Shown: piece by piece, positions 99 through 5,296 of the stretch
Position numbering within the stretch: the stretch's first letter is position 1
Layout: every line of letters begins with the position of its first letter
Assembly: GCA_013334485.1 (NCBI GenBank)
Contig: JAAXXL010000001.1
Location: forward strand, 1-64,000
Origin: Chlorobiaceae bacterium
GTDB taxonomy: Bacteria > Bacteroidota > Chlorobiia > Chlorobiales > Chlorobiaceae
Reading direction: 5' to 3'
DNA length: 64,000 bases
Made by a program: the position numbers and the translations under genes
The notes under the pieces: generated by a model
Database searches by the model: none
Told to the model about the DNA's origin: nothing
What the model saw: the letters and a program-made list of their open reading frames with translations, nothing else

Positions 99-506
99 AA
101 CTACCCTATACTAAAGTTGTTGAGCGGATTTACCGCTAAGCGTAAAAAAAACATCCTTGAAGAGAAAAATACGTTTTTTCCCGTGATACCGGAGAAACTG
201 TTCATGGTAAAACAAGGTAAACCATGCAAGTAAAGCCAATATACGAATCCTGATTTCCTGCAAAACAGAGCGGGGAAATATTTTTCAGCGGTCAAGCTAC
301 CTGACGAGGAGAATACAGTGCGGATGCGGTGGTTAGATGATGCACCGACATTATTCGATCAACTTAAAAAACGAGCAATTATGGCCTTACCTGCAGCTTC
401 TTCGGCATCATGGGAGCCTGAACGAAATATTAAATTGACAAGCAATTAGCGCTTCACAGCAAAAAAGGCGAGAATTATGCTTTTGTGCATTGATCCACCA
501 ATTACT

Positions 507-1376
507 CTATCCTCCATATTGATATTTTGGCGCCATTCTTTTTAAATGATAATGAGCCCCTAACAAGTCAGATTCGATTTCATGAAGCTGGTGTGGCAAA
601 ATTTTCAAGTCAAGAATAGAAACATGAACCTCGTAATGCTCAAAATCCGATTTTATCTTCATAAGAACTGAATGGTTGTTGAATCTGCTTCGACAATTTG
701 ATGTTTGACCGATATAAACAACATCGTTAACTTTCTTATCCACCATTTTATAAACACAGGGGAGGTTACTCAATTTTTGCAAAGATAATCCAGAACCTAA
801 CGCGGTAGACCAATCAAGCCCCATCCAGTCCATGTCAGTTGGATTACTGAACAATACGAGTGGCTTCGCAGAAGGCCCTGCAGCAGGATTTTGCATCTCG
901 TTTGGTAACTTTAATCCCCTAATTCCCCGACTCTTCAAACTTGACTTTGAATATGCCTGATGAAAACGACCATAATTACATTGCGTCGAAACACCTGTAC
1001 TTATCCTGTGTCTCCATAACAAGTAATCTTCACAGCCCATGCGATCTCTTTTAGCATGACTGGTAGATGCCACTGAGCATTCATATTCGTGACCATATTC
1101 TCTCAAATATACCCATAGATTTGGAGCCGCAGTATGAGGGTCATCAAATGGCATTTCTGTTGCATAGGCATGTGTTGATAGGGCCGCTAATCGACCTCTC
1201 AAAGAGACTCCAGTTTGACCAATGTAAAACAAATGTTTAATTCCTTTGGCTCTAACCCGGTAAACCCCAGGTCGATTTGGTATCTTTCGAAAGTCAATAC
1301 CTCTATCCTTCAGAGGGACCCATTCACTCCATTCCAGCTCCGCCCAATTCGGAGATAACACATCTGCAGAATACAT
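507..1376 (-). CDS. Protein with two tandem GIY-YIG-like domains
   Basis: Two motif pairs: PGVYRV...LFYIGQTG...LRGRL and PCVYKM...VVYIGQTSNCRSRF, with downstream conserved Glu-type segments. Confidence 0.7.
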   Translation of the reverse strand: MYSADVLSPNWAELEWSEWVPLKDRGIDFRKIPNRPGVYRVRAKGIKHLFYIGQTGVSLRGRLAALSTHAYATEMPFDDPHTAAPNLWVYLREYGHEYECSVASTSHAKRDRMGCEDYLLWRHRISTGVSTQCNYGRFHQAYSKSSLKSRGIRGLKLPNEMQNPAAGPSAKPLVLFSNPTDMDWMGLDWSTALGSGLSLQKLSNLPCVYKMVDKKVNDVVYIGQTSNCRSRFNNHSVLMKIKSDFEHYEVHVSILDLKILPHQLHEIESDLLGAHYHLKRMAPKYQYGG

Positions 1377-1387
1377 AACGACTCCAA

Positions 1388-2053
1388 CTACAATGTTATA
1401 CTGCCATCAATTAAAGCTTGCGCGCATGAGTATTGCCAGTTTGTCTTTTGAGTGGTATTAAATCTTTCAGAGCTAAATCCATTTCCTATTTCCGGAGATG
1501 CATCAGAATTGAAAAACACTTTTTTCTGCCCTTTCAACTCTTTTGTGAGCTTACAGAAAAGAGGCAAATAATCTTTCCCACCTATAAAAACAATAGTATC
1601 GCCATCATCAGGTATTTGACAAAAATCATCGTAGTGATCTGATTTACGTCGATAACTGTAGGGCGGGACATTTCTGGCGTTGCTAAACGTTATATCATAA
1701 TCAGGTGTCAGAAAATCTGAAGCGATTAGCCCCCAACCTGCTGAAAGGATATAGACCTGTTTTACTCCAAATTTATTCACCAAATTCTCATATACTTTAG
1801 GCTTATAGAGTCGAAATGCCGGTAACAAACGCAATGGATTTGATTCGGCATCTTTATTGAATTCCATGAGGCGTTCACGCCAGGAATATTGCCCATCCGA
1901 AAGATCATCTGGCCTCGCATAAATATACTGATCGTTTATAGGCACACCGCCCAGATTGGCTATAAATTTCACTAACCTTCCATCAGTTGTGCGAAACCCT
2001 GACCCAGCCAGTTGTGGATTTTTCCTTCCAGCGCATTGAAGCACAATTTTCAT
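1388..2053 (-). CDS. YaaA/DUF6884-like protein
   Basis: Starts MKIVLQCAGRKN; contains VKQVYILSAGWGLIASDFLTPDYDITF, resembling the 'LSA.yGL....PYd' motif of YaaA/DUF6884 proteins. Confidence 0.5.
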   Translation of the reverse strand: MKIVLQCAGRKNPQLAGSGFRTTDGRLVKFIANLGGVPINDQYIYARPDDLSDGQYSWRERLMEFNKDAESNPLRLLPAFRLYKPKVYENLVNKFGVKQVYILSAGWGLIASDFLTPDYDITFSNARNVPPYSYRRKSDHYDDFCQIPDDGDTIVFIGGKDYLPLFCKLTKELKGQKKVFFNSDASPEIGNGFSSERFNTTQKTNWQYSCAQALIDGSITL

Positions 2054-2748
2054 AACAAGCTTCCGGTTTTTTGGATGAACATGTCGAATGTATCTAAGAA
2101 CGAAGGGTTATAAGTCTCATCAACGTGGTTTTGATTCCACAATCCGGATAACCGAACTTTTTCACGATTGCATTTATAACCCCGCCATTCATGAGACTGG
2201 GGATCTAATGGAGGTTTTTTGTAGTTACTCAGTAATGCAATAGCATTTCTTTCGATAACCCCTCGCAAGCTCTCAGGTGACGGAGCATCATCAACATCCA
2301 AATAGAGGAAAGGCATTTTTGTTATTATTGAGCTTACTTCTTTCTCAAGCAACTCTTCGCCACAACGGATATCAGCGCCTGCTGATGATCCTTGGCCCCA
2401 TGTTGAACATCCAGTGTATTTATCGAAAAGGGTTGTGCCAACGAGCAACCTGAATATTGAGCCTCGATGGTTACCGCCCCCTGTTTTTATCGCACCCTTA
2501 TGTTGGGAAAGTCGTTGAGCTAAAGTTGATTTTGAGTCCTGCTTTAGTCCATGAGTCCCAACTCTGACAATTCTATGACCAGTACCACTATCAGTTCTTA
2601 ACTCCCCATGCTCCATAAAGAAATAAACCCCTCTTCTGGGTAAACTTTTTGAGTTACTATCGGACAGATAAAATGGGCCTCCGGTATTTTGTTCCAGCAT
2701 CTTCAATAACTGGTAAAACATTTTTAGATCATCTTTTCTATTGTCCAT
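2050..2748 (-). CDS. GIY-YIG-like family protein (uncharacterised)
   Basis: RRGVYFFMEHGE...GHRIVRVGTHGL...LAQRLSQHKG resembles a divergent GIY-YIG core; start MDNRKDD chosen at 2748 because the longer ORF start (2847) overlaps the HTH relic. Confidence 0.55.
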   Translation of the reverse strand: MDNRKDDLKMFYQLLKMLEQNTGGPFYLSDSNSKSLPRRGVYFFMEHGELRTDSGTGHRIVRVGTHGLKQDSKSTLAQRLSQHKGAIKTGGGNHRGSIFRLLVGTTLFDKYTGCSTWGQGSSAGADIRCGEELLEKEVSSIITKMPFLYLDVDDAPSPESLRGVIERNAIALLSNYKKPPLDPQSHEWRGYKCNREKVRLSGLWNQNHVDETYNPSFLDTFDMFIQKTGSLL

Positions 2749-2824
2749 TGTCAACAATATCCTGTTGTGATTTGCTGCGCTATTTTGGTAGTAACAATTC
2801 GTTGAACCTGCAGTGAGAAAGGCA

Positions 2825-3054
2825 TTAGAAGCTACTCTCGGAAACAACGGTCAATTTAACGCCAAGGGCATGAAGAACTGCCTGGACGGTTTCAAAACGC
2901 GGATGAGAGCCGACACGTAGCGCTTTGTATAGGCTTTCCCTTCCCAATCCGGAATTTTTGGCTATTTGTGACATCCCCCTCGCTTTTGCAACATCGCCGA
3001 TAGCAGCGATAAATATGGCGTGTCTTCAGCCGCATCAAAACTCAAGGAAAGCAG
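2825..3054 (-). pseudogene. Frameshifted HTH addiction-module antidote protein (HigA-like) relic
   Basis: Reverse strand gives ...IFIAAIGDVAKARGMSQIAKNSGLGRESLYKALRVGSHPRFETVQAVLHALGVKLTVVSESSF*, but the upstream part is interrupted by in-frame stops and continues in another frame. Confidence 0.6.
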
Positions 3055-3270
3055 TTATTCCTGATCTACTTGAGCCTTTTGGCTTTCAGCTTCACGTCTT
3101 TTGATGATCTCGTCAGCCGTAAGACGAACAACTTTGCCATCTATCATGGTAATAATCGCGGTATTGGTACGAATGGCAAGATCTTCGGCAGCTTTGCCCG
3201 CTCGCTGCATTGCTGCATAAGAGCCTGCCATATCAGGATCAGGAGAAAGTCGAATATCTTTTGTTGTCAT
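3055..3270 (-). CDS. Small protein immediately downstream of zeta-type toxin
   Basis: ORF MTTKDIRLSPDPDMAGSYAAMQRAGKAAEDLAIRTNTAIITMIDGKVVRLTADEI; start at 3270, 4 bp from upstream gene end. Confidence 0.65.
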   Translation of the reverse strand: MTTKDIRLSPDPDMAGSYAAMQRAGKAAEDLAIRTNTAIITMIDGKVVRLTADEIIKRREAESQKAQVDQE

Positions 3271-3274
3271 AGTG

Positions 3275-3781
3275 TCAGCTCCATTCAATGAGTTTTGGAG
3301 GGGTAAACGTACCATCGTAGAGTGCCCATGAGTCTACAACTTCTTTGTATTTTCTGTTAAAATTGTCAAGACCAGAAGCAAAGCGACGGCGAATGACATC
3401 TTCAGATATGTTATGGCCGCCTTGTCGAACACGTTCTGCTACACGAGAAACAGCAATATCCGGGGAGTGAAGAGAGATGAACCAGATTTTCACTGCATAT
3501 CCTTTAGCTTTCCAATCCGAGATACGTTGCAGGTAAGCCAAACCGGAAAGAGTTGTTTCAAAAGAAAAGCTTTCACCATTCAATGCGCAATCATCAATCT
3601 CCGTCAGCATAATTCGTGCTGCTTTGATAGCAGCTACTTCCGGGTTAAACGGAGAGAGACCGGCAGCAATCAAATCCGCATTCACAAAACGGAGCATCTG
3701 AGCCTCTTGCGGAAGAAAATCTCTTGCAAATGTCGTTTTGCCTGCGCCGTTGGGGCCTGCGATAATAATAATTTTTTTCAA
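3275..3781 (-). CDS. Zeta toxin family P-loop protein
   Basis: [24 protein letters not shown] Walker A, VNADLIAAGLSPF, FETTLSG motifs typical of zeta-toxin/AAA kinases. Confidence 0.8.
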   Translation of the reverse strand: MKKIIIIAGPNGAGKTTFARDFLPQEAQMLRFVNADLIAAGLSPFNPEVAAIKAARIMLTEIDDCALNGESFSFETTLSGLAYLQRISDWKAKGYAVKIWFISLHSPDIAVSRVAERVRQGGHNISEDVIRRRFASGLDNFNRKYKEVVDSWALYDGTFTPPKLIEWS

Positions 3782-3920
3782 TTCACCTACTTGCCGCTGC
3801 GCTGTTTACTTTACAGTAGTCTTTTAGAAAAGGTAATATTTATCTCACTCTCTCGCATACAAGATCATGACAATTCGTTTTCTTACCCTGCTACAGAAGC
3901 ACTCACTGAGCAGCGAAGTA

Positions 3921-4433
3921 TCAGGACGAAATGCGGATTATAGCCTTGCGAACATCCTTGAGCAACAGAAGAAGATGATACGGGTCGGTCGGAGAGAGGA
4001 TAAAATCAAAGTGTGCGTAAAACTGCCGGGCTCCGTCGTCTTTTGCATGGGCAGCGATTGCCCGGATACCCACAATATCGGCAGCCTGTAGAGTTCGCTT
4101 CATGGCATCTTTCAAAAGTCCGGATCCGATCCCCCGATTTTGCCACTGCTTGCTCACGGCCAAACGCGCCAGTAACATTATAGGGAGAGGGTGGCGTGCC
4201 AAACCCTTTTTCAGGCGATCCGGGGCATCTTCGTAATGCACCTGTCCGACGGTAAGGGTATAGAAACCAATGACCGTGCTGCCTGCCAATCCGACATAGG
4301 TTACCGATGAATCAGCCTGTTGGCTCGCAAGCGCATAGCGCACAAGAAACTTGTTGAGCTGTTCACTGCCGCAGTCAAAATCATTTACCGTATGCGAGCT
4401 CTTGAGCTTTTCGATGGAGAAACAGGTTGACAT
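3921..4433 (-). CDS. GNAT acetyltransferase, TacT-type toxin
   Basis: FDCGSEQLNKFL, LLARLAVSKQWQNRGIGSGLLKDAM, paired with upstream DUF1778-type ORF. Confidence 0.8.
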   Translation of the reverse strand: MSTCFSIEKLKSSHTVNDFDCGSEQLNKFLVRYALASQQADSSVTYVGLAGSTVIGFYTLTVGQVHYEDAPDRLKKGLARHPLPIMLLARLAVSKQWQNRGIGSGLLKDAMKRTLQAADIVGIRAIAAHAKDDGARQFYAHFDFILSPTDPYHLLLLLKDVRKAIIRISS

Positions 4434-4439
4434 GAAACA

Positions 4440-4721
4440 TTACCTCTTTTCGAAAACACTTTGTTTCCGGAAAAGTTTTTCCACTTGTGGCAACTCACGA
4501 TCAGGAGCGTCAAGCGCTTCCATAAATGCCTCCCATTGCCGGGCATCCAGATTAAACGAACGACGATCAGCAAGCATCTCTTCTGCTCGTGACATGGCAC
4601 TTTCAAGCACAAATTGACTTAGTGAGCTATGTGCAGCAACTGCCGCACGATTCAATGCCTCCTTGGCCTCCATCGAGAGGCGGATATCGAGCTTTGCAGT
4701 TTTTGCTGTCTCTATAGCCAT
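4440..4721 (-). CDS. DUF1778 family antitoxin (TacA-type)
   Basis: KTAKLDIRLSMEAKEALNRAAVAAHSSLSQFVLESAMSRAEEMLADRRSFNLDARQWEAFMEALD. Confidence 0.85.
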   Translation of the reverse strand: MAIETAKTAKLDIRLSMEAKEALNRAAVAAHSSLSQFVLESAMSRAEEMLADRRSFNLDARQWEAFMEALDAPDRELPQVEKLFRKQSVFEKR

Positions 4722-4975
4722 AACATGTACTGTTCAGTTGATCTCTGTGCAGTAATATACAAGAAATGCCGGACATTGTCACGACAAAAAAAACGGTCGA
4801 ATGCGCCCGATAAGGTTCAACAAGTTGTGATGGGCAAATTAATTGTCGTAAGCAGTTTAAGTTTTAAGCCCCGGAGAGGCGAAACATCGTTAGCGCAGAC
4901 CCGATGCAGTCGGGGACGTGAAAGGATTTTGAGCACCGCCCAACGAAGTAATCATACTGCGGAACAGATTAATAG

Positions 4976-5296
4976 TCAGGCCCGTTGATGCCCGCACTTC
5001 CAACATGAAGAGAACTGCCCTTCAATCGCTTCGCCGCAATCCGGGCAAACCCATTGGGGATGGGTTTCAAGCAGTGAACTCCGCCATGCCGCCTTCAACT
5101 CGCAGGCCCGGGGATAGTCCTCGTCCTGCATAATCCAGAGTGCAGGGAGGCACTCCTGTGGCGCAAGCTCACCCGACGCAATAGAGAGATGCTCGTTGCG
5201 GATGGTGCAGGCTATCCCTTCGTTGTCGAGAAGCTCCTTGAGCAGGTAGACCTCGCTCGACTGATTCATGGTGTTGGGTGTAAACAAATGCTTCAT
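4976..5296 (-). CDS. DUF2007-type protein with C-terminal zinc ribbon
   Basis: VYLLKELLDNEGIACTIRNEHLSIASGELAPQECLPALWIMQDEDYPRA and WVCPDCGEAIEGQFSSCWKCGHQ. Confidence 0.7.
   Translation of the reverse strand: MKHLFTPNTMNQSSEVYLLKELLDNEGIACTIRNEHLSIASGELAPQECLPALWIMQDEDYPRACELKAAWRSSLLETHPQWVCPDCGEAIEGQFSSCWKCGHQRA

Follow-up and report, generated by a model that had tools for sequence, protein, structure and literature searches.

A candidate defence module in a Chlorobiaceae genome that joins a YaaA/DUF6884-like protein to GIY-YIG-like proteins

RESULTS

Layout of the locus and its accessory insert

The window, i.e. the whole stretch of 64,000 nucleotides that was analysed, carries near its start three minus-strand genes in tandem (M57B 2748..2050, M57A 2053..1388 and G1 1376..507 in the ORF listing), which lie with several toxin–antitoxin genes in an accessory insert. 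The features are as follows.

285–4989, no strand: accessory insert of 4.7 kb with the trio and toxin–antitoxin genes; empty site in relatives G015 and G007
507–1376, minus: G1, 289-aa tandem GIY-YIG protein; PF01541 in domain 2 (E 8.2e-7), internal duplication (E 5e-8)
1388–2053, minus: M57A, 221-aa YaaA/DUF6884-like protein; weak profile matches, motifs, fold match to YaaA (5caj)
2050–2748, minus: M57B, divergent GIY-YIG-like protein of 232 aa that opens the operon; PADLOC PDC-M57B model PDLC04714 (E 1.9e-77)
2825–2974, minus: HI1420-type antitoxin remnant, N-terminally truncated (PF21716 positions 46–89 of 90, E 7.5e-18); flanks the module and is no part of it
3055–3781, minus: zeta-toxin-like kinase (3275–3781; PF06414, E 4e-9) and 86-aa partner ORF (3055–3315); flanking
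3921–4721, minus: TacA-like antitoxin (PF08681, E 2.7e-23) and GNAT toxin (PF13508, E 3.4e-8); flanking

M57B and M57A share a 4-bp ATGA overlap at 2050–2053, whereas M57A and G1 are separated by an 11-bp gap, and M57A (GGAAG) and G1 (GGAG) each have a plausible Shine-Dalgarno-like sequence upstream. Coordinates, strand, order and spacing are thus those given in the initial annotation. As relatives of the proteins occur across phyla, and dN/dS against the nearest relative locus is 0.15 for M57B, 0.11 for M57A and 0.13 for G1, indicative of purifying selection, all three are taken to be real genes. The GC content of the trio is 41% versus 49% in the window outside the insert. In the close relatives G015 and G007, ∼70 bp replaces window positions 285–4989, with a left flank that is 96% identical; this empty site lies between genes that we take to be DUF2007/TPM and gcvT, names assigned by reading the sequences. 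The presumed gcvT begins at about window position 98 and runs off the contig, which starts inside it, and is intact beside the empty site of the relatives. The toxin–antitoxin neighbours reported initially are real. No convincing pair of terminal repeats was found for the insert, and neither a DNA methyltransferase nor DpdB nor a TGT-like DpdA is present among its genes. A classical type II restriction–modification (R-M) system was rejected on the absence of a methyltransferase from the 4.7 kb.

M57A has the motifs and predicted fold of the YaaA/DUF6884 superfamily

M57A is characterized by weak profile matches to DUF6884 (E 0.0025), to the PADLOC PDC-M57A model (138 positions; E 1.9e-4 over residues 92–165) and to DpdC (E 7.1e-5), and its score against Pfam PF21818 (DUF6884), 18.4 bits, is below the curated gathering cut-off of 30. 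The M57A profile matches a bona fide DUF6884 protein with an E-value of 6e-6 and gives chance-level matches only against PDB sequences. Both DUF6884 motifs are found, CxxxK as CAGRK and LSAxxG as LSAGWG, and C7, K11 and LSA(G/S)WG are kept in 20 relatives, the sole change being G/S at one x position. The structural model (pLDDT 93.2) has E. coli YaaA (5caj) as its top PDB match, with a Foldseek probability of 0.97 and a TM-score of only 0.41. Motif, profile and fold evidence agree, and M57A probably belongs to the YaaA/DUF6884 superfamily, with a predicted cantaloupe fold.

DUF6884 proteins and YaaA have a positively charged DNA-binding cleft in common, and a published AlphaFold3 model places a flipped base in the conserved pocket; YfjM was identified as a protein that interacts with abasic and RNA-base lesions, and YaaA is tied to oxidative stress (PMC11701544). 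DpdC, whose assigned domain is DUF6884 (PMC11888242), converts dPreQ0 to dADG in DNA by hydrolysis (PMC12839542).

M57B is GIY-YIG-like and diverges at the YIG tyrosine

The PDC-M57B model covers residues 4–228 of the 232 in M57B. Across an alignment of 23 members G40/Y42, R62-V63-G64, R79, H83, E166 and N175 are invariant, and the first half-motif reads GVY with Tyr42, whereas YIG is replaced by RVG (Tyr to Arg62); R79, E166 and N175 follow in order. In the confident AlphaFold2 model (pLDDT 89.6), strands and helices run in GIY-YIG order, and the invariant residues fall, in turn, on strands 1 and 2, helix 1, the helix that follows strand 3 and the loop after it. A Pfam search with M57B gave no match (best E-value in a relative, 0.065), Foldseek returned unrelated matches only, comparison with the G1 profile (hhalign) was not significant, and matches of the M57B profile to PDB sequences were at chance level. 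Because neither Foldseek nor profile comparison confirms superfamily membership, and arginine replaces the tyrosine of YIG, the protein is labelled GIY-YIG-like, a placement suggested, and not proven, by ordered invariant residues and predicted topology. For the same reasons, the role of M57B may be that of a binding subunit and not of a nuclease. R.Hpy188I provides a precedent for a basic residue, lysine, at the YIG tyrosine position (PMC2630997).

G1 is a tandem GIY-YIG protein

The halves of G1 match each other (E 5e-8) and represent a genuine tandem duplication, with domain 1 at about residues 10–140 and domain 2 at about residues 180–289; the PF01541 match to the second half is above the cut-off, and weak PDB sequence matches include UvrC and T4 endonuclease II. 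Domain 1 has a complete catalytic set (Y39, Y51-I-G, R62, E116 and N134), and domain 2 has Y209, Y221-I-G, R231 and E266/E268, with Gln286 in place of the asparagine. Both active sites are conserved in 11 relatives. The PADLOC family PDC-S14 was rejected as the G1 family, its match spanning 38 residues only. In G051, the G1 gene contains an in-frame TAA at the codon of the domain 2 GIY tyrosine (L055/L003:2712–2714), with an ATG shortly after, which is either a true nonsense mutation or a MAG assembly error. Of the identities proposed at the outset, those of G1 as a tandem GIY-YIG protein and M57A as YaaA/DUF6884-like thus stand, whereas GIY-YIG membership of M57B is without significant Pfam or Foldseek support.

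The YaaA-like protein pairs with different nuclease-like partners

A genome scan gave 24 usable M57B loci from Proteobacteria, Thermaceae, Chthoniobacter, Hydrogenedentota, Latescibacterota and other lineages. M57A lies downstream of M57B in 21 of the 24, across many phyla and mostly with the 4-bp overlap; in one of the 21 (L014) an extra ORF separates the two. In a 22nd locus (L009) the place of M57A is taken by an HTH-fused YaaA-like gene, as read by eye, and L020, L022, L036 and L037 have M57B with no adjacent YaaA-like gene. At L015:7182–9706, M57A-like genes occur on both sides of M57B.

On viral contigs a short DUF6884 gene overlaps M57B from directly upstream in six of nine cases, among head genes, and in one more contig, at L065:5467–6879, DUF6884 and M57B are fused in one ORF (PDC-M57A 2e-43, PDC-M57B 1.4e-67). 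This fusion has an additional C-terminal ∼120 aa with no Pfam or PADLOC match. At L059:5439–6687 and L061:5580–6696, the DUF6884-M57B pair sits amid phage head genes, past a large protease-like ORF and before a small head-like gene. No G1 was found in the viral contigs, and neither M57B nor long M57A in annotated phages.

Relatives of G1 adjoin DUF6884 on three haloarchaeal plasmids (Halalkalicoccus, Natrialbaceae and Natrinema) and on a plasmid of the cyanobacterium Tolypothrix. Among 60 same-genus genomes, M57A and G1 occur in the identical five, at no fewer than three different sites, and M57B in only two of these, so that the full trio was seen in two genomes only; in a 396-genome phylum sample the distribution is likewise patchy (1 of 172 genera). 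The three same-genus genomes without M57B have a small ORF between M57A and G1, and their sites differ. In G037 and G055 the intervening ORF is a different one of 123 aa; a 109/118-aa family (L054:1826–2155; L055:3026–3382) lies between M57A and G1 in G057 and downstream of G1 in G051, and the 109-aa form of this moving family has no Pfam match.

The conserved units are consequently the pairs M57B+M57A and DUF6884/M57A+G1 and not the trio: co-occurrence in other genomes, whose absence the initial annotation named as a refuting result, was found, but in the form of two pairs that overlap in the YaaA-like protein at their centre and not as a widespread trio. G1 is missing from the 15 searched M57B-carrying genomes outside the window's genus and M57B from three genomes with M57A and G1, so neither GIY-YIG partner is obligatory. 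As the YaaA-like protein pairs with different GIY-YIG proteins (M57B, G1 and a Deinococcus pair), it is regarded as the hub. At the Deinococcus peraridilitoris locus (L096:2647–4599), DUF6884 precedes two separate proteins that are GIY-YIG-like and unmatched by the M57B and G1 profiles. On a Burkholderia plasmid (L095:3001–4628), DUF6884 is followed by an HNH endonuclease, which suggests partners outside the GIY-YIG group. DUF6884 adjoins DpdB in Variovorax, and in Halorubrum tailed virus 29 (HRTV-29; L101:2486–3611) it adjoins DpdA downstream of the portal gene, a neighbourhood that would connect the fold with 7-deazaguanine modification of DNA in viruses of archaea.

The pairs lie in defence-rich settings

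Known defence genes near the relatives include Argonaute, QatA, a CBASS cyclase, type I R-M, GmrSD and Hachiman, and L018 and L025 adjoin genes read by eye as AbiE. In both G037 and G055, a type III Mod unit and an SNF2 helicase/DUF4391 unit flank the inserted M57A-ORF-G1 cassette. On the haloarchaeal plasmids, DUF6884-G1 has either DUF1837 and a DEAD/DEAH helicase, a pair that we take to be Hachiman, directly downstream or a DUF262-HNH gene upstream. Sixty ORFs around M57 loci match 202 PADLOC families (E≤1e-15), with pAgo, QatA, type I methyltransferase and CBASS cyclase foremost, whereas 60 control ORFs from the same genomes match 28, mostly UvrD-like helicase models, at the same threshold; this contrast counts families and not proteins, compares sets trimmed by hand from longer lists and carries no formal statistic. 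The defence setting of the module is well supported, and the original suggestion of an accessory island with a DNA-processing or defence module finds good support in the empty site, the scattered distribution and these neighbourhoods.

DISCUSSION

Relation to known systems

The M57B+M57A pair corresponds, by sequence, to the PADLOC candidate system PDC-M57, which is already catalogued, as a candidate only. The likeness consists of the full-length M57B match, the adjacent YaaA/DUF6884-like gene, the single strand and the 4-bp overlap. Three traits are new with respect to PDC-M57: M57A is long (221 aa) and only weakly matched by the corresponding model, the order is M57B-M57A instead of the DUF6884-M57B of viral copies, and the tandem GIY-YIG gene G1 is added. 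The early statement that the combination is not a named system accordingly holds for G1, which is outside PDC-M57, and not for the other two genes. In the literature searched, with subscription papers and outside preprints beyond its scope, no experimental report on PDC-M57 was found, nor any description of DUF6884 with GIY-YIG or of YaaA-like proteins combined with varying GIY-YIG partners, YaaA with GIY-YIG leading only to a plant review on another subject; as far as this literature shows, the term ‘uncharacterised’ was apt.

M57A resembles E. coli YaaA (DUF328) in fold and B. subtilis YfjM (DUF6884) in its CxxxK/LSAxxG motifs and differs from both in that its partners are nuclease-like genes located on mobile islands. 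It is also a remote homologue of DpdC (E 7e-5) of the Dpd 7-deazaguanine DNA modification/restriction system; unlike Dpd, the locus is without DpdA, DpdB or the restriction operon. Each of the five host genomes has one TGT only, presumably the ordinary tRNA enzyme, and Dpd membership was therefore rejected. Among GIY-YIG restriction enzymes, R.Hpy188I shows similar departures from the canonical motif, a basic residue for the YIG tyrosine (Arg62 in M57B) and glutamine for the asparagine (Q169; Q286 in G1 domain 2) (PMC2630997), whereas such enzymes differ from the present proteins in the cognate methyltransferase, which is absent here, and in the tandem domains of G1 and the YaaA-like partner.

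A proposed mechanism and its alternatives

We propose, with a probability of about 0.5, that the trio is a compact defence module, spread horizontally and directed against DNA, in which the GIY-YIG proteins cut where M57A has read an abnormal base. M57A, with its predicted cantaloupe fold and conserved Cys/Lys pocket, would bind DNA and flip the base out, recognise and possibly chemically process a base that is abnormal or modified in the DNA of an invader, and hand the site over for cutting to M57B, the putative divergent single-domain cutter, and to G1, which, with two sites in one chain, could cut both strands; protection from phage would be the outcome. This reading builds on the repeated pairing, the fusion, the mobile insert, the defence-rich settings and the catalytic residues conserved in both G1 domains, and, as regards the base, on the findings for YfjM and DpdC together with the single TGT. 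As a counterpoint, the pair, where it lies in operons of phage head genes, could benefit the phage itself.

The conserved Cys/Lys pocket would also suit a system of the base-excision type, in which M57A is a toxic glycosylase, lyase or hydrolase that makes abasic or altered sites in invading DNA, at which the GIY-YIG proteins cut. The related DpdC acts chemically on a base in DNA (PMC12839542), YfjM interacts with abasic sites (PMC11701544), and defence glycosylases exist, namely Brig1 (PMC11078745) and the PabI family (PMC10273834). However, Brig1 is UDG-like and Brig3 AAG-like, and both were rejected as relatives of M57A on these different folds; glycosylase activity of the YaaA/DUF6884 fold was not found in the literature searched, and we consider this type rather unlikely. 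The ties of YaaA to oxidative stress and of YfjM to lesions (PMC11701544), and the presence of UvrC among GIY-YIG proteins, would fit a repair or lesion-processing module that travels on mobile islands and has no defence role. Such a role is improbable in view of the patchy distribution, the empty site in relatives and the embedding in R-M and other defence loci.

The remaining alternatives are more improbable still. In an R-M-like arrangement as in Dpd, M57A would mark host DNA and the GIY-YIG proteins would cut what is unmarked, in line with the part of DUF6884/DpdC in the Dpd marking pathway (PMC12839542, PMC11888242) and with the DpdB and DpdA neighbours in Variovorax and HRTV-29, but the absence of a TGT-type DpdA and, from the insert, of DpdB and a methyltransferase speaks against it, and as the host genomes carry a single TGT each, self-marking by 7-deazaguanine through M57A is unlikely. 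Equally doubtful is a selfish homing or phage-competition element in which the GIY-YIG protein would cut alleles that do not have the cassette: homing enzymes are a typical setting of GIY-YIG domains and the pair is inserted among phage head genes, whereas chromosomal copies occupy different sites with defence genes and the insert has no convincing terminal repeats.

Beyond recognition of a foreign base by M57A followed by GIY-YIG cutting, which we continue to prefer, a wider scheme may tentatively be envisaged, a two-tier restriction of modified bases in which the YaaA-fold base-flipper would be a general recognition module, combined repeatedly with unrelated GIY-YIG families (single, tandem, split or fused) and here driving two nucleases against modified-base DNA.

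The YaaA/DUF6884 fold is widespread, and its chemistry is poorly known apart from DpdC. It pairs repeatedly with nucleases in defence islands and, in other places, with DpdA or DpdB, which suggests that the fold reads or edits DNA bases in the conflict between phage and host. The PDC-M57 catalogue entry may now be viewed as a defined candidate module that has a hub, residues predicted to be catalytic and the extra nuclease-like protein G1, and a family of long-standing obscure function becomes directly testable.
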